From: Ktedonobacterales bacterium | GTDB lineage: Bacteria > Chloroflexota > Ktedonobacteria > Ktedonobacterales > JADMIN01 | Assembly (NCBI GenBank): GCA_025936795.1 | Contig: JAICSR010000006.1 | Span: forward strand, 1-32,164 | Direction: 5' to 3' | DNA length: 32,164 bases | Shown: in pieces, positions 1,378-31,630 of the stretch | How the letters are laid out: each line of letters begins with the position of its first letter | Numbering within the stretch: the first letter of the stretch is position 1 | Made by a program: the position numbers and the translations under genes | The notes under the pieces: generated by a model | The model's database searches: none | What the model was told of the DNA's origin: nothing | What the model saw: only the letters and a program-made list of their open reading frames with translations

Positions 1378-1518
1378 GCTGGCGGTTGAAACCGCACCTG
1401 ACGGCGGCCTGCGGGCCGCCACAAGACCCGCCTGCGCGGGGCCACATCCGCCATTCCAGTCCGCGCAGGCGGACTTTGCGGCCCGCCGGGTCATCCAGGC
1501 GCGGTTTCAACCGCCAGC
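1378..1518. repeat. Family A nested inverted repeat, copy A1
   Basis: Terminal GCTGGCGGTTGAAACCGC (1378-1395) matches the reverse complement of GCGGTTTCAACCGCCAGC (1501-1518). Internal hairpins GGCGGCC-TGCG-GGCCGCC (1403-1420) and AGTCCGC-GCAG-GCGGACT (1458-1475). Confidence 0.9.
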
Positions 1519-1569
1519 ATGCGGATGCTCATAGCGTAGCAGCGACCTTTGAGGGAGAGGACGAGTCAC

Positions 1570-3348
1570 TTGACCAAGGAGTTCTGCCGACACTGCGGCG
1601 CCGAGGCCCCGGAGGGCGCGCAGAACTGCGCGGTCTGTGGAGCGCGACTCGACGCAGCCGCCAGTGACGCTCTGCCGCAGGAGACCGCGCAGCGGCAAGC
1701 GCAGCGCGCAGCGGTTGCGTCTGGCCCCAGCAGCCCCATCGCGCCGCCCCCGTCACCCGCCGCGCCTCCCTCGCCTGCGCAGTACGCGCCCTATCCAGCG
1801 GCGCCCGGTGTGTGGGCGCCACCCGCCCAGCCCGCCTATCCGGGCTACCCGGCACAGCCGACGCAAGCTGGGCAGCAGGGGCAGCCAGGCTACCAGCCCT
1901 ACCCCTATGGCGCTGGCTATCCGCAGCCTGGGCAGGTCTATGCCTACCCAGGCTACCCAATGGGCGGCTACTATGCGCCGCAGTATGTCATGCAGCCAGC
2001 GCCCAGACGCGCGCCCGGCGAGGTCTATGCGCTCGTCGTCGCGTGGATCGTGACCGTCGCATCCGCGCTGGCCATCCTGGGCGGGCTGCTGGTGACAGCG
2101 CTCGCCACGCTGGGCGCCTTTAGCGGGCAGGGAGACGACCTCTCGTATCTCGGCGGCATCATCGGCTTCTCGCTCGCGCCGATCGTCGGCGGCGGCTTTG
2201 GCCTGTGGTATGGCATCCTCGGCATCCGGCGGCGACCCTCGCCGCGCTTCGGCTTGCCTGCCGCGTGGCTAATACTGGGGCTGGCCGTGCTGGCGATCGG
2301 CGGCGGGGTGGCGCTGTGGCAATACAACTTCTCGCAGATGCGCTCGCCGGGGACCGCCTTTGGCATTCTGCCGCTCGCCATGCTGACCGGCACGCTTCCA
2401 GCGCTGGCGATTCTCGCCTTCACCACCCAACGCCTGGGCAACCCGTCCACGCGCCGCCACGTCTGGATGTCGCTCTTCTATGGCATGACGCTCGCGCCGC
2501 TGCTGGCCGTCATCCTCGAACTGATCCTCAGCCTGATCATCGTCGCCGCACTCAGGCTGAGCGCGCAGGACGCGCAGAGTGTGCTGGGGCAGCCCAACAC
2601 CAGCAATCCCTCGCCGAAGCTGCTCGTCGCGATGCTGCTGGTGCTCTCGGTGGTGGCCCCGCTGGTGGAGGAAGGCGTCAAGCCGCTCGCCGCACTGCTC
2701 GTCATCCGGCGTCTGCGCACACCCGCCGAGGCCTTTCTGGTGGGGCTGGCAGCCGGAGTTGGCTTCGACATGCTCGAAACCATTGGCTACATCGGGCAGG
2801 GGCAGGCCGACTGGGTCTCCGTCTCGATGGAGCGCATCGGCGCAGGGCTGCTGCACGGTGTGGGCGCGGGCATGGGCGCGCTCGCCTGGTATTATCTCAT
2901 CAACGGCTCTGGGGTCCACCTGCGCTGGCTGCGCGCGATTGGCTGCGGCCTCTACGCGATCCTGCAACATGGCGTGTTCAACGCGCTTGGGTTCTACGAT
3001 CTGGCGCTGCCCTCAAACATCGGCGCCTGGCTAAACCAGCCATTCTTTCTCGGCGGCCTGCCGCTGCAAAACGCAGATGTGATCTATCTGGTCGCCTATG
3101 GCCTGATCCTTGGCGTGCTGATCTTCATGACCAGCCGCCTCTGGGGCGCGAAGGGCATGCCTGAGCGCAAGCCGCCTGTAGTTGGCCCAACACCGCAGGC
3201 CTGGCCAGCGTGGTATGCGCCCTATGGCTATTACGCGCCCTACGCGCCCTACGGCTCGTATGGCCAGCCTGCACGCGTCGTTCCAGGGGGATGGCCCGCG
3301 CCTGCTCCCATGCCGCAGACACCGCAGCCGATGGGAGGCGCGCAATGA
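1570..3348 (+). CDS. Zinc-ribbon / Pro-Tyr-Gly-rich / PrsW-family intramembrane protease
   Basis: CRHCG..APEGAQNCAVCGARL zinc ribbon; multi-TM core; PrsW motifs EEGVK, FDMLE, LLHGVGAG and LQHGVFNAL. TTG start at 1570 preceded by GAGGGAGAGG; the ORF track begins at 1549. Confidence 0.8.
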   Translation: MTKEFCRHCGAEAPEGAQNCAVCGARLDAAASDALPQETAQRQAQRAAVASGPSSPIAPPPSPAAPPSPAQYAPYPAAPGVWAPPAQPAYPGYPAQPTQAGQQGQPGYQPYPYGAGYPQPGQVYAYPGYPMGGYYAPQYVMQPAPRRAPGEVYALVVAWIVTVASALAILGGLLVTALATLGAFSGQGDDLSYLGGIIGFSLAPIVGGGFGLWYGILGIRRRPSPRFGLPAAWLILGLAVLAIGGGVALWQYNFSQMRSPGTAFGILPLAMLTGTLPALAILAFTTQRLGNPSTRRHVWMSLFYGMTLAPLLAVILELILSLIIVAALRLSAQDAQSVLGQPNTSNPSPKLLVAMLLVLSVVAPLVEEGVKPLAALLVIRRLRTPAEAFLVGLAAGVGFDMLETIGYIGQGQADWVSVSMERIGAGLLHGVGAGMGALAWYYLINGSGVHLRWLRAIGCGLYAILQHGVFNALGFYDLALPSNIGAWLNQPFFLGGLPLQNADVIYLVAYGLILGVLIFMTSRLWGAKGMPERKPPVVGPTPQAWPAWYAPYGYYAPYAPYGSYGQPARVVPGGWPAPAPMPQTPQPMGGAQ

Positions 3349-4112
3349 TCCCCACTGAGACGACCAATCCGCCAGCCACGCCCAACACAGCGCCGACCCG
3401 TCCAGCCGCACAGACAGTCTCCAGCCGCTACAGCCTGATCTTCGGCGTCGCGCTGACGGCGGTGACGGTGATCGCGCTGATCCTGGCCTTCTTCTCCTCC
3501 AACTTTCGCCCGCGCGCCTCGGATGCGCTGCCCGCCAGTTGGACCCAGGCCTACAACGCCGACCTGTCTGGCTCAGACACCGGTAGCTGGGATGAGACGC
3601 AGGGGTGCAGCATGACCGGGCTTGGCCTCGACGCCGATCCCGGCGACGACAACGATGCGCAGTGCGCCTTCACGCCGAGCGTGCGAGAGGATGTCACTGC
3701 CAACGGCTTCTACTTCGTGACCCAGCTGGCTCCGGCGGCCAAGGTGCAGGAGTTTGCCCGCTCAGTCGTCAGCGTGGGCGACATCAGCGCGTTCGATAGT
3801 GGCGATGGCGCAGCCATTCACTTCATCGTCGGCCAGGATGGCGCCTATATCCTCTGCGATGGCGACTGCTCGCAGGCGACCAGCGCCATCTATCTGAGTG
3901 GTGGCCTGGCGTCATGGCACGGCGACCCGCATGTCGCCAACACCATCGCCGTGAAGGTCTCGCCCGACCATAGCGCGCTGACGGTCTACGTCAATGACCA
4001 GGAGGTCGCGACGGTCGCGACGCAGTTTGGCCCGCAGCCCGGCATCGCCCTGGGGTCGCTCGCCGGCGATGAGGCGATCTACACGCATGCCACGCTCTAC
4101 ATCGGACGATGA
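3345..4112 (+). CDS. Single-pass membrane-anchored protein with C-terminal beta-sandwich (LamG/concanavalin-like) region
   Basis: ATG overlaps the upstream stop (ATGA at 3345-3348). TM segment YSLIFGVALTAVTVIALILAFF, followed by a soluble domain with NTIAVKVSPDHSALTVYVNDQEVATV, typical of LamG-like folds. Confidence 0.7.
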   Translation: MIPTETTNPPATPNTAPTRPAAQTVSSRYSLIFGVALTAVTVIALILAFFSSNFRPRASDALPASWTQAYNADLSGSDTGSWDETQGCSMTGLGLDADPGDDNDAQCAFTPSVREDVTANGFYFVTQLAPAAKVQEFARSVVSVGDISAFDSGDGAAIHFIVGQDGAYILCDGDCSQATSAIYLSGGLASWHGDPHVANTIAVKVSPDHSALTVYVNDQEVATVATQFGPQPGIALGSLAGDEAIYTHATLYIGR

Positions 4113-4645: not shown

Positions 4646-6184
4646 TCAGATCGGCATGCGCCCGCGATAGGCGGCGTCGAGCAGGTCCACGAGGTGCAGC
4701 ACGGGCAATGCGCTGCCCATCTGATCGAGCTGCGCGCGCAGATGCAGCGCACAGCCAGGGTTGGCAGTGACGACGGCCTGCGCCTGTGTGGCGACGATGT
4801 GCCCGGCCTTGCGTCTGCCCAGCGCGCCCGCCATCTGCGGATGGGTGATGTTGTAGACGCCCGCGCTGCCGCAGCAGAGCGACGCCTCCGCCATCTCCAC
4901 CACCTTCAGGCCAGGGATGGCGGCCAGCAGGGCGCGTGGCTGGGCGCTGATGCGCTGGGCGTGCGCCAGGTGGCACGGCTCCTGATACGTCACCGTCAAT
5001 GGCAGCGGCTCGAAGCGCGTGTTTAGCTCGCCATGCGCCAGCGCCTCGCCCAACAGCTCGCTGATGTCGCGCACACGCGCCGCAAACGCGCTGGCCCGCT
5101 CGCGCCATGCCGGGAACTCGGCGAAGAGTTCGCCGTACTCCTTCAGCGCCGAGCCGCAGCCAGCGGCGTTGCTGACGACATAGTCCGCGCCGCTCGCCTC
5201 GCAGGCGGCGATGTTGCGCGTGGCCAGCGTGCGCGCGCGGTCCATCTCGCCCGCGTGGATGGTGAGCGCGCCGCAGCACTCTTGCCCAGCGGGCGCGACC
5301 ACCGTGAAGCCGTTGGCGTTCAAGACGCGAATCGTGGCGCGCTCGGTCGCAGCGAAGGCAGCGCTCATCACGCAGCCCGCGAAGAAGGCGACGCGTCCGC
5401 GCTGCGGCGCATCGGGCGGCGCGGCGTAGACCTCGCCGCTGGGCGCATAGAACTGGTCGGGCAGGCTGGGCGCCAGCGCCTCGGTCGCGCGCAGGCCGAG
5501 CGCATCCAGCGCGCCGCTTCCATGCGCCAGCCGCCGCGCGCCAGAGCGCTGATACCAGCGTAACGCTCGCCCCGCCAGCCGCAATCGTCGCTGATCGGCG
5601 AAGAGGCCGCTGAAGACGGCCGAGCGCAGCGCACGCTCTCCCGCAGGCCGTGATCGCGCCCGTTCGATCTGCGTGCGCGCCGTCTCGACGAGTTGGCCAT
5701 AGCGCACGCCAGAGGGGCAGACGGCCTCGCAAGCGCGGCAATCGAGGCACTGATACATCTGAGCGACGAAGCTGGGGTCCGTCAGGCTCAGCGCGCCATC
5801 GGCCACCGCTTGAATCATGCGGATGCGCCCACGCGGCGACGACGCCTCGCTGTAGGTTTCGAGATAGGTGGGGCAGGCGGGCAGGCAATAGCCGCAGCGC
5901 ACACACCGCTGCAAACTGTCGTCGCTGGGCTGATCTGGCCCACTAAAGCCCGAGACGCCGCGCGCACCTGCGCCCAGCACATGCTGCGTCAGGTCAATCG
6001 GCTGCCGTTGGGAGGCAAGCGCGCGATGCTGTGCGTCCTCTGGAGTCTCTGCGCTCACCTGCCGCCTCGCCTTCTGCTCGCCTGCTCGCTCTGCCTGCGC
6101 CTCCGTTGCGCATGCCTCACCAGTATAGACGCCATTGCCAACCCCACGCCACCGCGCGGCGCCTTGCCCTTCGGCCAACAGCAT
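4646..6184 (-). CDS. glcF: GlcF-like glycolate oxidase iron-sulfur subunit / (Fe-S)-binding oxidoreductase
   Basis: CVRCGYCLPACPTY and CLDCRACEAVCPSG ferredoxin motifs; two CCG-type motifs (AGQECCGAL, ASLCCGSAGVYNI). The true start is probably internal (GTG near 6060). Confidence 0.8.
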   Translation of the reverse strand: MLLAEGQGAARWRGVGNGVYTGEACATEAQAERAGEQKARRQVSAETPEDAQHRALASQRQPIDLTQHVLGAGARGVSGFSGPDQPSDDSLQRCVRCGYCLPACPTYLETYSEASSPRGRIRMIQAVADGALSLTDPSFVAQMYQCLDCRACEAVCPSGVRYGQLVETARTQIERARSRPAGERALRSAVFSGLFADQRRLRLAGRALRWYQRSGARRLAHGSGALDALGLRATEALAPSLPDQFYAPSGEVYAAPPDAPQRGRVAFFAGCVMSAAFAATERATIRVLNANGFTVVAPAGQECCGALTIHAGEMDRARTLATRNIAACEASGADYVVSNAAGCGSALKEYGELFAEFPAWRERASAFAARVRDISELLGEALAHGELNTRFEPLPLTVTYQEPCHLAHAQRISAQPRALLAAIPGLKVVEMAEASLCCGSAGVYNITHPQMAGALGRRKAGHIVATQAQAVVTANPGCALHLRAQLDQMGSALPVLHLVDLLDAAYRGRMPI

Positions 6185-17405: not shown

Positions 17406-17440
17406 CCCCTCTCCTGGTGGGAGAGGGGTTGGGGTGAGGG
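17406..17440. repeat. Family C GC-rich hairpin repeat
   Basis: CCCCTCTCC-TGGTG-GGAGAGGGG followed by TTGGGGTGAGGG; same motif as 23699-23734, 29709-29745 and 32131-32164. Confidence 0.85.
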
Positions 17441-19484: not shown

Positions 19485-19560
19485 TGGTGCCAAGGGGCGG
19501 GATCGAACCGCCGACGCCAGCATTTTCAGTGCTGTGCTCTACCGACTGAGCTACCTTGGC
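19485..19560 (-). tRNA. tRNA-Phe (GAA), CCA encoded
   Basis: Minus strand GCCAAGGTAGCTCAGTCGGTAGAGCACAGCACTGAAAATGCTGGCGTCGGCGGTTCGATCCCGCCCCTTGGCACCA; anticodon loop CTGAAAA. Confidence 0.97.
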
Positions 19561-19667: not shown

Positions 19668-19793
19668 GCCAGCGGTTAAAACCGCGCCTGAAGGGCCTCC
19701 AGCCCACGAGGTCCGCCTCCGCGGACCCCCATCCGGATCCGGGGTCTGGTGGTGGCCCGCAGGCCACCTTCAGGCGCGGTTTCAACCGCTGGC
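19668..19793. repeat. Family A nested inverted repeat, copy A2
   Basis: GCCAGCGGTTAAAACCGCGCCTGAAGG against the reverse complement of CCTTCAGGCGCGGTTTCAACCGCTGGC; internal hairpins GGTCCGC-CTCC-GCGGACC and GGTGGCC-CGCA-GGCCACC. Confidence 0.92.
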
Positions 19794-19800
19794 TGCCCTA

Positions 19801-21012
19801 TTATAGCGTTTGGCTGATGAAGAAACGCCACATCCAGAGCAGCAGCAGCGCCAGGGTCGCGCCCAGCGTGATGGCCTGCGTGGTGAGCGCCGCCAGGCTC
19901 GATTGATAGGTGGGGCTGGGGTGGGCTGCCAGGCGTAGCGACCCCAGCAGCAGATGCAGCGCCTCATCTTCGGGGGCGAGGTCGCTCATGCGCTGTATCC
20001 CTGCCACGCTCTGCGAGACCAGCGGGGCAATGTCTGGCGTCGCACGCAGCGCCGGGAGGACTCCGGGCTGAGTCAGATACCAGGTGGTGTAGGCCGGGTT
20101 GATCGCATGGGCGCGTGTGACCAACTCTGCGGCTTGCGTTATATCAGCGGTTGAGGCGGCGGATTCGAGCAGGTAGATGGCGACCAGCGCTGGCTCAGGG
20201 GTGGTGACGCGCCGCAGACGAGTCAGCGTGGCGCCAAGCTGGCGGGTGAGACCGAGCGCGCGCAGAGCGCGGCAGAGCGCGCTCAGGCAGGCGGCGTGAT
20301 GCTCGCGGCGCACGTATGGTGCGAGCGCCTGAATATCAGACAGGCTCACCCGCGCCAGCGCCTCGGCCTCTGCGGGCAGGCCGCGCGCCAGCATCGCCTC
20401 GGCCAGCGTCGCATTGGCCCGCACCGAGCGCTCGGAGGTCAGATGACTCGCTAGACGCGCGGCTTCGATGGCCAGCTCGTAGCGGTTGAGCCGCACGAGC
20501 GCGACAGAGCAGTTGGCGATGGTCTGTGGATCGGGCGAGGCCTCCATCGCCACAATCGCGGCTGCCAGCGCCTCGTCGTAGCGCCCCAGCCCCAGCAGCG
20601 CCGTCACCCGGCGATTGAGCCAGACGAGCCGCCGCCGCCCAACCCAGGCGCCCGTCCCCGTGACCGCCAGCGATTGATCGCACATCGCCAGCGCCTCGGC
20701 GTAGCGCCCGCGCTGCGCCAGCGTGTCGGCGCGTGCGGCGGGCGAGAGCCAGCGCGCCACCCGCAGCAATGCCAGCCACAACGCGACGCCCAGCAGCGGC
20801 GCGCCACTCAGCGGCGTATCGAGCGCGATGGAGATGAGTATCGGCGCCAACGCCAGCCCCACCCAGGAGAGCGCCGCCACTCTGGTGAAGAGGCCGCTGC
20901 CATCAGTCACGACGAGGCGTGTGACAGGCGCAGTGACACGCAGCGTGCGGCCGCCGATGGGCGTGACGCCTGCATCTGCGCGCTCCGCATTCCCCTCGAA
21001 TGGACGAGCCAT
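19801..21012 (-). CDS. TPR-repeat protein with TM segments (C-terminal tail anchor)
   Basis: TPR-like helices (GRYAEALAMCDQSLAV, GRYDEALAAAIVAMEASP); C-terminal ITLGATLALLLLWMWRFF hydrophobic anchor. Confidence 0.75.
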   Translation of the reverse strand: MARPFEGNAERADAGVTPIGGRTLRVTAPVTRLVVTDGSGLFTRVAALSWVGLALAPILISIALDTPLSGAPLLGVALWLALLRVARWLSPAARADTLAQRGRYAEALAMCDQSLAVTGTGAWVGRRRLVWLNRRVTALLGLGRYDEALAAAIVAMEASPDPQTIANCSVALVRLNRYELAIEAARLASHLTSERSVRANATLAEAMLARGLPAEAEALARVSLSDIQALAPYVRREHHAACLSALCRALRALGLTRQLGATLTRLRRVTTPEPALVAIYLLESAASTADITQAAELVTRAHAINPAYTTWYLTQPGVLPALRATPDIAPLVSQSVAGIQRMSDLAPEDEALHLLLGSLRLAAHPSPTYQSSLAALTTQAITLGATLALLLLWMWRFFISQTL

Positions 21013-22585: not shown

Positions 22586-22726
22586 GCCAGCGAATGAATT
22601 CGCGCCTGAAGGGCCTTGCGGCCCACAAGACCCGCCTACGCGGGTCCGAAGACTCCGGACGTGGACCTGCGCAGGCAGGTCTTGTGGCGACCGCAGTCGC
22701 CTTCAGGCGTGGTTTTAACGGCTGGC
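22586..22726. repeat. Family A nested inverted repeat, copy A3
   Basis: GCGAA-TGAA-TTCGC, GGGCC-TTGC-GGCCC and GACCCGC-CTAC-GCGGGTC, then mirrored GACCTGC-GCAG-GCAGGTC and GGCGAC-CGCA-GTCGCC. Confidence 0.92.
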
Positions 22727-23656: not shown

Positions 23657-23698
23657 AGGCCGCTGGTGGCCTGGGTCGTTGGCGTTGCGCCGCGCGAC

Positions 23699-23734
23699 CT
23701 CACCCCCGGCCCCTCTCCCGCGAGGAGAGGGGAG
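23699..23734. repeat. Family C hairpin repeat, between convergent genes
   Basis: CTCACCCCCGGCCCCTCTCC-CGCGA-GGAGAGGGGAG. Confidence 0.85.
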
Positions 23735-25615: not shown

Positions 25616-25661
25616 GCTGGCTAGCAGGTTGAAACCGCGCCTGGAGGACGGTAAACCGCCT
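25616..25661. repeat. Family A fragment (one arm only)
   Basis: AGCTGGCTAGCAGGTTGAAACCGCGCCTGGAGG matches the family A terminal block; no mirrored arm seen. Confidence 0.7.
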
Positions 25662-25689
25662 GATATGGTTCGTCGCTTCACGATGCTCG

Positions 25690-26085: not shown

Positions 26086-26210
26086 GCCTGCTCACTTTCT
26101 CATGGCGCGCATTCGGCTGCGCTACGCTGCCGCTATGATACCTGAGGATGGGCAAGCAGGCGATAGGTATGGGACTCTCCGGCCAGTGAGACGTGTGCGG
26201 GGGTGAGGGG

Positions 26211-26340
26211 CGCGGCATTGAAAGGCCGGCGCACGGTGTGCGGGGCATACAGGCCCTTTGGCGTGCCGCCACAGGCGCCATGCGCCCTTCCTCGGCCTTC
26301 AGGTCGGCGTCGGCGTGCGTCGGCCTTTCAAGGCTGCGAG
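26211..26340. repeat. Family B nested inverted repeat, copy B1
   Basis: Left end GCGGCATTGAAAGGCCGGCGCAC; right-end reverse complement CGCAGCCTTGAAAGGCCGACGCAC. Confidence 0.85.
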
Positions 26341-26377
26341 CGCTAGCGTTGGGAGGAAGCTTGCTCACCAGCGTTGC

Positions 26378-28370: not shown

Positions 28371-28485
28371 ATCCGCTTCACACCCTCACGCTCTGCCGCT
28401 GCGGCTGACCACGCTTCCACTAAGCGCGGTCGCAGCCACCTCCATTGTACGACGCCGAGAGAGCGCGGCGCCGTGCGCCAAGCTC

Positions 28486-28673
28486 TCGGCCTTGAAAGGC
28501 CGGAGCACGCGGACGCAGCATAAATGCTGGATACGCTCTCGGCCATAAATGGCCGGAGCTCGTGGGCGCGGCCTGAAGGCCTGGACGCGGCGCACGCCGC
28601 CAGCAGCGCCGAACAGTATGGGCATTTATGCCCCGTCGCGCTGTGCGCCGGCATTTCAAGGCCGCGCCTGTCC
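28486..28673. repeat. Family B hairpin array, copy B2 (longest)
   Basis: CGGCCT-TGAA-AGGCCG, CAGCA-TAAA-TGCTG, GGCCA-TAAA-TGGCC, GGCC-TGAA-GGCC, then GGGCA-TTTA-TGCCC and GGCATTTCAAGGCC mirrored. Confidence 0.9.
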
Positions 28674-28786
28674 CTCCACCCCCTTCCATCGCTATGCTAC
28701 ACTGGCCATGCGCTCCAGGGCAGGCGTGGCTGGCAGGGCGGCGCGGCGATTGGGGCGTGTGAGCGCGCAGCGAGCGAGGTGGCAGG

Positions 28787-31435
28787 ATGCAGGCGTGGGC
28801 GCAGATGCGCGCAGCCGTGACGAAGCAGCCCAAGCCGATGCTGGGCTGGCGGCGCTGGCTGTGGCCGCGTGGCGTGGCCGCGCTGGCGGCGCTCTTCGTC
28901 GCACTGCTGCTGCTCGATGCGCTGCTCTACCAGATCACCCTGCCCATCGCCATCAGCAGCGACGGCGGGCGCCTGACCATCGCAGTGGATGGCGCCGCCA
29001 CGCAACGGCTGCCGATCAGCGGGCGCATCGTCTCCGTCGCCATCCCGCCGCGCGACCCGCTGATTCACGAGTATCAGCTCGATGGCACAGATAGCACGAA
29101 CAACTTCACCCTCGATCCCACCTACCTCCAGAGCATCGCCGCCACCCCCTACTACCGCTTCTACGCCTGGATGCGCGACCTCGACGGCCTCAGCCGTTGG
29201 CGCGACCTCTGCGCGAACGTCGGAGCCACTGCTGACGCCAGCGATACGAGCGCCTGTATCGCCGAGCCACCGCTCAGCGGCGCGCAACTGCTGATTCCGG
29301 CGGGCGCGACCCAGCGGATCAGCGTGCGCTTGCAGCGGCCAGAGACGCCCGTCTCGCTTGCGCTGACGATGAGCGATGGCAGCGTCGTCACGGTGACGCT
29401 CGACCGCAACGACCACGCCGTCAGCGTCAGCCGCGCCGTGGCCGGGCAGCCCAGGGCAGTCGTCGCGCGGACCTTCTTCCCCACCGACGCGGCGCCCTTC
29501 GCCGCCATGACTGCGGACTTCCTCGTGCGGCTGGCGCTCTGGGCGCTGGCGCTGCTGGGACTGATCTGCGGCGGTGAATGGCTGGTGGGCCTGCTGCTCG
29601 GCGCGCTGCGTCTCAGTCCAGCGGATGACCTCGCCACAGCGGATGGCCTCGCCACAGGCGCCATGCTCGGCGTCACAGTGGAGGATGCAGCGGAGGGGGC
29701 GGCGCGCCCTCACCCCCGGCCCCTCTCCCAGAGGGCGAGGGGAGTCGCTAGCTTTATTGACGCGGGCTGGCGCGGGCTGACGGCGGCGATTCATCCCATC
29801 GGGCTGCTGGCGCTGGCGGCGTCGTTCATCTTCGTCGTCTGGATCGCCCTCGCGCAATATCATGCTCAGCCACACATCTACGACGCCAGCGCCTACCTCT
29901 TTGGCGCAAAGACCTTCGCTGCGGGACGCCTCTTCGCGCCTGTGCCCGCCGCCGTGGATCGCTTTCCCGGCCCCTTCATGCTCGTGCGCGATGGCAAGTG
30001 GTTCACGCAATATGAGCCGGGCGCGCCGCTGACCCTGGCGCTGGGCGTGGCGCTGGGGGCGCCGTGGCTGGTCGAGCCGCTGTTGGGAACGCTGGCGCTG
30101 CTCGGCATCGGGCTGATCGCGCGGCGGTTCTATGATCGGCGTGTGGCGACGCTGGCCGTGCTGCTGGGCGTCGTCTCGCCCTTCTACAGCTACCTCGCCG
30201 CCAGCTATCTCAGCCACACCATCGCGCTGTTCTATCTGGTCTGGGGCTTCTGGGCGCTGCTACGCGCGCTCGACGCCGACCGACGCGGCGCGGCCTGGTA
30301 TCTGCCGCTGGCCGGGCTACTCTGGCTGATGGCGCTGCTGACGCGCGACACCAGCGCCATCTTCGCGGCGGTGGCGACGGCGGGCGCGCTCTGGCTCGCC
30401 TGGCGCGGCGGCTCGCCCACGCTGCGCCTGGCGCTAAGTGGGATGGATCGGCGACGCTGGCTCGCGCCGGGGCTGGCGCTACTCGGTGTCGGCGCGCTTG
30501 GCCTGGTTGTCGCCCTCGGCTACAACGCCGCGCTGACTGGCAGCCCGCTGCTCACCCCGCGCCAGCTCTTCTTCCCTGGCGATCACTACGGCTTCGGCAA
30601 GGGGGTCGGCTTCTATGGCCAGCACACGCTGGCCGCTGGCTTTGTCACCGTGGATGAACTGCTCGCCAGCCTCGCCATCAATCTCTACGGCTGGCCATTT
30701 TACCTGACGCTGGCGTTCCTGCTGATTCCCTTCCTCACGCGCCGCGCACGCGCCGCCGATGTCGTGATGCTGCTTGGCGCGGCGGCAATGACCTTCGCCT
30801 TCATCGGCTTCTACTACCATGGCATCTATCTCGGCCCGCGCTATCTCTTCGAGGCGCTGCCCTTCTTCCTGATCCTCACGGCGCGTGGGCTGGTGACGCT
30901 GGCCGAGGCGGGCCTCGCCGCCCGCGCGCATGGCGTCGCGCGTGGCGTCGCGCTGGCTGAGACGCGGCTGGCGGCGCCTGCGTCCTCCGCGTCCTCCGCG
31001 TCCTCCGCCCCTGCTGCCCCAATCGCGCGTGGCGCACACTGGTCGGCTGGCGTCTCGCTGACGGGCGCGCTGGGCGTCGCGCTGCTGGCCTGCCTCTTCG
31101 GCTACTTCTTGCCACGCCAGCTTGCGCTGCATACCGACTTCACAGGCATGGACGCCGGACGCGCCATCCAGATGAGCGCGCTCGACCACCCGCCGCTGCA
31201 TCACGCGCTGGTCGTCACCAGCGACAGCCAGCTCTATGGCTACACGCTCTTCGGGCTGAATGATCCGCTGCTGCGTGGCAATGTGATTTACGCCGAGGCC
31301 ACCAGCGCCGCCGATCTCACCGAGCTACATCGCGCCTTCCCCGACCGCAGCATCTACGCGCTGATCGTCGACGCCGATGGGGCGATCCACTTCATCCCGC
31401 TTGACAACAGCATCGAGAGCGGCGCGGCGCCATGA
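28787..31435 (+). CDS. Multi-pass GT39/ArnT-like glycosyltransferase (882 aa)
   Basis: Multiple TMs; IYDASAYLFGAKTFAAGRLFAP...FTQYEPGAPLTLALGVALGAPWLVEPLLGTLALLGIGLIARRFYDRRVA...LLTRDTSAIFA. Confidence 0.75.
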   Translation: MQAWAQMRAAVTKQPKPMLGWRRWLWPRGVAALAALFVALLLLDALLYQITLPIAISSDGGRLTIAVDGAATQRLPISGRIVSVAIPPRDPLIHEYQLDGTDSTNNFTLDPTYLQSIAATPYYRFYAWMRDLDGLSRWRDLCANVGATADASDTSACIAEPPLSGAQLLIPAGATQRISVRLQRPETPVSLALTMSDGSVVTVTLDRNDHAVSVSRAVAGQPRAVVARTFFPTDAAPFAAMTADFLVRLALWALALLGLICGGEWLVGLLLGALRLSPADDLATADGLATGAMLGVTVEDAAEGAARPHPRPLSQRARGVASFIDAGWRGLTAAIHPIGLLALAASFIFVVWIALAQYHAQPHIYDASAYLFGAKTFAAGRLFAPVPAAVDRFPGPFMLVRDGKWFTQYEPGAPLTLALGVALGAPWLVEPLLGTLALLGIGLIARRFYDRRVATLAVLLGVVSPFYSYLAASYLSHTIALFYLVWGFWALLRALDADRRGAAWYLPLAGLLWLMALLTRDTSAIFAAVATAGALWLAWRGGSPTLRLALSGMDRRRWLAPGLALLGVGALGLVVALGYNAALTGSPLLTPRQLFFPGDHYGFGKGVGFYGQHTLAAGFVTVDELLASLAINLYGWPFYLTLAFLLIPFLTRRARAADVVMLLGAAAMTFAFIGFYYHGIYLGPRYLFEALPFFLILTARGLVTLAEAGLAARAHGVARGVALAETRLAAPASSASSASSAPAAPIARGAHWSAGVSLTGALGVALLACLFGYFLPRQLALHTDFTGMDAGRAIQMSALDHPPLHHALVVTSDSQLYGYTLFGLNDPLLRGNVIYAEATSAADLTELHRAFPDRSIYALIVDADGAIHFIPLDNSIESGAAP
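29621..29656 (+). repeat. 18-bp in-frame tandem duplication within the GT39-like gene
   Basis: GCGGATGACCTCGCCACA / GCGGATGGCCTCGCCACA, one mismatch. Confidence 0.9.
29709..29745. repeat. Family C hairpin repeat inside a CDS
   Basis: CTCACCCCCGGCCCCTCTCCCAGAGGGCGAGGGGAG, encodes PHPRPLSQRARG in frame. Confidence 0.85.
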
Positions 31436-31449
31436 CGAGGGATGCGCCG

Positions 31450-31561
31450 CTGGCCTTGAAAAGGCCGGAGGACGCCGACGCGGCCTGAAGGCCGATTTCA
31501 GCGACGCGCAAGCGGGCATTTCTGCCCAATCGCTCTGTACGTCGGCCTTTCAATGCCGCGA
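31450..31561. repeat. Family B nested inverted repeat, copy B3
   Basis: GCTGGCCTTGAAAAGGCCGGAGGACGCCGACG and CGGCC-TGAA-GGCC left; GGGCA-TTTC-TGCCC and CGGCCTTTCAATGCCGCG right. Confidence 0.85.
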
Positions 31562-31630
31562 CCGTGCGATGTAGAACCGCGACCATGCTCTTGATGGCCG
31601 CGACCCCATGGCGAATGGAGGGAGACGCCG

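Follow-up and report, generated by a model that had tools for sequence, protein, structure and literature searches.

The closest described systems are the REPINs/BIMEs with RAYT of E. coli, Pseudomonas and Stenotrophomonas (PMC3116915, PMC8266576). They consist of inverted palindromic pairs in many, mostly intergenic copies, accompanied by one low-copy HUH Y1 gene that is flanked by copies. The pairs can be heterotypic, as in E. coli (y with z), and REP dimers are mostly heterodimers, for which there is no obvious explanation (PMC3733652). The element family described here shares this organisation. It differs in that its units are built of two or three perfect hairpins with conserved linkers and have no GTAG foot, and in that its enzyme appears to be of class 1.2 type, not class 2. 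TnpAY1 subclass 1.2, marked by the motif Y---Q--HH, has been described mostly from Cyanobacteria and Bacteroidetes, and as generally lacking typical secondary structures at its termini (PMC6006769). The enzyme type studied here has the same motif, the HUH motif and a low copy number, and is likewise common in Cyanobacteria. Unlike in the published description, multi-hairpin repeats flank nearly every locus here (units in 73/80), and the range includes Chloroflexota and Armatimonadota.

Three further Y1 systems show a partial likeness. In the case of TIRtrons/TIRYTs, as here, the Y1 gene lies between long inverted repeats, some of them self-complementary, and some repeat families form dimers (PMC3733652). 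However, TIRYTs are mostly of class 2.1 (PMC6006769), and many share the motif GGGGWSAS, which by eye is absent from the consensus of the present units. IS200/IS605 elements (IS608, ISDra2) have a related HUH Y1 transposase and subterminal hairpins, whereas here the gene is single-copy, the units are dispersed without it, there is no multi-copy autonomous element, and no such units stand beside class 1.1 genes. Class 3 TnpAY1, with atypical CnGA structures (PMC6006769), also has high-copy non-GTAG structures around the Y1 gene, but is set apart by its described Y----Q motif and different foot.

The window, that is, the whole analysed stretch of 32,164 nucleotides, contains three copies of the element. 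Copy A3 (22586..22726) is a pair of inverted arms, each of ~63 nt, around a centre of ~13 nt; the arms score 80.7 and 77.6 bits with the covariance model. The left arm, of type X (22586..22648, plus strand), carries hairpin I, GCGAA-TGAA-TTCGC (22590-22603), as the earlier note had read it, hairpin II, GGGCC-TTGC-GGCCC (22611-22624), and hairpin III, GACCCGC-CTAC-GCGGGTC (22629-22646). In the right arm, of type Y (22662..22726, minus strand), hairpin III, GACCTGC-GCAG-GCAGGTC (22664-22681), and hairpin II, GGCGAC-CGCA-GTCGCC (22686-22701), are followed by a degenerate hairpin I (22709-22722), in which 2 of 5 pairs are broken. The description of A3 as mirrored arms of three hairpins each therefore holds for the left arm and fails for hairpin I of the right. 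The sequences given by the note for hairpin III were found in both arms of A3, and the linkers lie where it placed them. Its view that hairpin II has the same loop in either orientation had to be abandoned, since the two arms of one copy carry two different types of this hairpin. The reading frames on either side of A3 are divergent.

Copy A1 (1379..1517) is composed of a type Y arm (1379-1444, plus strand) and a type Z arm (1456-1517, minus strand), and its neighbours are an AlkZ-like gene (96-1205, plus) and a gene for a PrsW protease (1549-3348, plus). Copy A2 (19668..19793) has a type X arm (19668-19729, plus) and a type Y arm (about 19734-19793, minus), next to tRNA-Phe (19485-19560, minus) and an ORF at 19801-21012 (minus). 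The right arm of A2 is without hairpin III, which we read as lost, so the earlier account of this hairpin does not extend to it. A possible single degenerate unit was also found at 25620..25672 on the plus strand (E = 0.0083).

The source genome, that of a Ktedonobacterales bacterium (Chloroflexota), is a 4.28 Mb draft in 622 contigs. A BLAST search of it gave 74 matches at about 40 places, and 42 near-complete copies were extracted and examined. Collecting copies with a covariance model of the arm, as the earlier note had proposed, revealed at least 111 arm units; this model, R1, was built only from arms of this genome. Arm type is defined by hairpin II: GGGCC..GGCCC in type X, GGCGRC..GYCGCC or GGTGGCC..GGCCACC in type Y, and GCCTGGATGGCC..GGGCCGCAAAGTCC in type Z. 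The pairing is X/Y or Z/Y in 34 of the 36 copies with both arms scored by script; by eye, the remaining two (L008, L036) are also X/Y, as is every copy in which one arm went unscored. Among the examined copies there was no homodimer, with both arms of one type. The stems of hairpin III are identical in both arms in only 1 of 27 X/Y copies, while 6.6 were expected when the arms were re-dealt (P about 5e-5, a value that ignores the shared ancestry of the copies). The same difference was observed in other species: of 29 inverted dimers located near TnpA genes, 28 combine different stems in hairpin III, AACCC with AGTCC being a frequent pair; a cross-species permutation test of arm difference gave P = 0.63, the species differing from one another anyway. 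With DNA parameters, the mean fold energy of the real copies is -56 kcal/mol, that of the local hairpins alone -39.5 kcal/mol, and that of copies in which the right arm exactly mirrored the left -109 kcal/mol. Arms of different types would thus allow the local hairpins to compete with a long cruciform.

The earlier note had seen compensatory stem changes by eye and ascribed them to an RNA fold or a DNA cruciform. Measured over 68 arms of this genome, 97.9% of paired cells are standard, compared with 35-46% when partners are slid. Two-sided changes occur in 7 pairs (85 cells). The covariation score of 0.242 was reached in 0 of 500 shuffles, for which it is 0.113; slid controls gave at most 0.083. 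In a MAFFT alignment of 54 units taken from further genomes, which belong to three phyla, 98.9% of cells are paired, two-sided changes occur in 8 of 12 pairs, and the score is 0.438 against 0.173. A set of 133 distinct model-fitted units gave the same result, in an alignment that is itself fitted to the model. The covariation noticed by eye is thus real, and with many copies at hand neither a lack of covariation nor a scarcity of copies came out, so the observation stands. One-sided changes of the G-U type are very rare, with 4 against 85 two-sided changes in this genome and 1 against 101 across phyla. The near absence of such changes points to DNA hairpins rather than RNA.

Two other explanations of the covariation were weighed. 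The units could act after transcription as a non-coding RNA, a terminator or an mRNA-stabilising hairpin, with RNA folding behind the paired changes. The local hairpins are indeed strong and their loops small, and REPs of other bacteria can act secondarily in mRNA (PMC3733652). We nevertheless regard this explanation as very unlikely, for several reasons. The stem changes swap one Watson-Crick pair for another and hardly ever pass through G-U, and the reading frames next to A3 diverge. The element's two sides mirror each other, and in three phyla its units are found around the genes of a single type of transposase. Moreover, in a search of the window with Rfam 15, tRNA-Phe alone was matched and nothing over the units. 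The structured RNA named by the earlier note as a leading explanation is accordingly disfavoured. The second explanation, which we consider rather unlikely though clearly less so than RNA folding, is that the changes are unselected, and that hairpins are perfected by quasi-palindrome correction through template switching at replication. On this view stems should be Watson-Crick-perfect and G-U steps rare, as is the case. On the other hand, switching between the arms would equalise them, whereas identical hairpin III stems are as rare here as stated above and were seen just once among the 29 inverted dimers from other species; loops and linkers are also conserved across phyla. This explanation bears on the covariation only and is compatible with a REPIN-like identity of the element.

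As the earlier note had stated, the window is without a transposase. The genome, however, contains two Y1 HUH transposase (Y1_Tnp) genes, and one of these lies between two element copies. It is located at C288:5128-5595 on the minus strand, codes for 156 aa from ATG, and stands between complete copies at C288:5000-5136 and 5629-5778, whose type Y arms face inward. This gene is single-copy in the genome. Its product contains the motifs DHVH (HUH) and YIRGQAEHH (that is, Y---Q--HH) and matches PF01797 with 67.1 bits and NF033573, the NCBIfam IS200/IS605 transposase, with 58.2 bits (cut-off 55). Its nearest solved relatives are IS200-type transposases, ISHp608 among them. With the REP_Tyr_transpos profile the protein gave no match, and two of its relatives reached 28 and 19.6 bits against a cut-off of 80. 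Y---Q--HH was found in 84 of 86 proteins of this TnpA type and in 0 of 17 controls. From the HUH motif, Y---Q--HH and the low copy number, the enzyme is assigned to the TnpAY1 subclass 1.2 type. The second Y1 gene (L034 on C307, near 3669-3980) has no units of the three-hairpin family at its flanks.

Orthologues of this TnpA in other Ktedonobacterales genomes are 42-55% identical to it. In G011, G012, G008 and G005 (two loci), the orthologous gene stands between inverted units built on the same plan; in G005 the unit sequence has diverged and the plan is kept. The two paralogous TnpA loci of G005 (L052 and L070) differ in the unit sequence at their flanks, as would be the case if every enzyme had a repeat to itself. 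Loci L144 and L051 (the latter in G008, of the same family as the source genome) have the same flanking sequences. When each GTDB species was represented by one genome, a scan gave 339 TnpA relatives, of which the best 80, mostly from Cyanobacteria and also from Chloroflexota and Armatimonadota, were fetched. Model R1 finds 237 units (E <=0.01) in 73 of these 80 subclass-1.2-type loci, and the best 150 of the 237 units include 109 that are no more than 200 bp from the gene. Among 24 other Y1 loci, units are restricted to L069, with a pair 1.3 kb away, and at none do they adjoin the gene. Flanking inverted repeats exceed all 100 shuffles in 75 of 85 loci, the null being Markov shuffles within each locus; a locus-versus-locus null is unsuitable, because species share repeats and some records contain runs of N. 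All 15 tested genomes with this TnpA carry units, from 13 to 150 or more each. Six cyanobacterial loci (L090, L105, L133, L148, L154, L155) have a stem of the CACCCT..AGGGTG type in place of hairpin I and keep hairpin III; this form is possibly a second type of unit. In Oscillatoria sp. HE19RPO (L135), long tandem arrays of units were observed on both sides of the gene.

Units were found in 16 of 47 Ktedonobacterales genomes, including 6 of 6 with a close TnpA. The 29 family f4 genomes have none; in some of them there are up to 24 class 1.1 genes. In 120 genomes of Cyanobacteria, where TnpA of this type is present in 1-2 copies per genome, units occur in 18 of 18 genomes with a close TnpA and in 41 of the 102 others (Fisher 6e-7, uncorrected for kinship). 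Model R2 was tested in part on genomes that had also served to train it. Units without a detected close TnpA are common, being present in 10 Ktedonobacterales genomes and in the 41 of Cyanobacteria; to account for them one has to invoke gene loss, incomplete assembly or a different enzyme, and the persistence of REPs after loss of tnpAREP has been reported (PMC6006769). For an empty-site search, the joined flanks of 18 copies were compared with two congeners (G014 and G015). The element is absent from the orthologous intergenic region of G015 in the case of L005, of G014 in the case of L010 and L006, and of both in the case of L029, while for L003 and L020 a different unit of the same plan is present in G015. 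The congeners are only ~80% identical, a distance at which presence and absence are readable and base-exact insertion points and target-site changes are not. These differences show gain or loss of the element, whatever the mechanism.

Taken together, these results support the REPIN-like reading of the earlier note, which was right in substance: the copies are numerous, each pairs two palindromic units in inverted orientation, and they flank a cognate Y1 gene. We regard the family as REPIN-like non-autonomous elements, each an inverted pair of unlike multi-hairpin REP units (X or Z with Y), probably spread in trans by the single-copy subclass-1.2-type TnpA, and give this reading a probability of about 0.8. 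In a rival reading, the units are remnants of IS200/IS605, that is, MITEs of a class 1.1 IS moved as a unit with their gene. The NCBIfam name of the protein speaks for such an origin, as do the units on each side of the gene, which resemble left and right ends. Against it stand one gene copy for at least 111 units, genomes with as many as 24 class 1.1 Y1 copies and no units, and class 1.1 genes that have neither adjoining units nor Y---Q--HH; we therefore hold it improbable. A canonical REPIN of a GTAG-type RAYT (class 2 TnpAREP) would share the organisation, the inverted pairs, the many copies and the single gene flanked by copies. The unit consensus, however, has no GTAG or GTGG foot (no conserved one was found in the 68-arm alignment), the enzyme has Y---Q--HH and not Y---NP, and the REP_Tyr_transpos cut-off was missed by far where there was any match, so this candidate is refuted. 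By organisation the REPIN-like family is thus a REPIN with RAYT, but it lacks the features by which GTAG REPs and class 2 enzymes are defined.

By analogy with the known chemistry of HUH Y1 enzymes (PMC8266576), transposition of these elements may proceed on single-stranded hairpins. When the DNA is single-stranded, e.g., on the lagging strand, each arm would fold into its local hairpins. A TnpA dimer could then read the conserved loops (TNAA of hairpin I, CTNC of hairpin III) and the linkers, and its tyrosine would cut and rejoin the strand beside them. The unlike stems of the arms would weaken the long arm-to-arm cruciform, so that local hairpins can compete, which may be why the arms differ. 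In a wider and less certain proposal, which we favour by a modest degree, subclass 1.2 is the enzyme of a large unrecognised superfamily of two- and three-hairpin REPs in Cyanobacteria, Chloroflexota and Armatimonadota; it would read local hairpins with TNAA and CTNC loops and need non-identical ends, as left-end and right-end types, against cruciform collapse.

In the open-licence literature on REPIN/RAYT with Chloroflexi or Cyanobacteria, no description of an association between subclass-1.2 TnpA and hairpin units was found, and the repeat sequences themselves returned only unrelated primers and genes. The association would provide substrates for an enzyme subclass to which neither typical terminal structures nor a known role had been ascribed. 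It would add a hairpin code beyond the GTAG and CGTC REPs and, in the genomes of Cyanobacteria and Chloroflexota, account for a large class of intergenic palindromes. The difference between arms, which recurs across phyla, suggests a testable reason why REP dimers are mostly heterodimers.

The window contains two other kinds of repeat. One is a second element family of ~130 bp with TGAA/TAAA-loop hairpins (GGCCT-TGAA-AGGCC), found at 26200-26342, 28482-28677 and 31447-31564, with about 20 copies in the genome. The other, CCTCACCCCCGGCCCCTCTCCC...GAGGGGAG, is an inverted C-rich/G-rich palindrome present in several copies, which in the window are at 17406-17434, 23689-23734 and 29699-29744.
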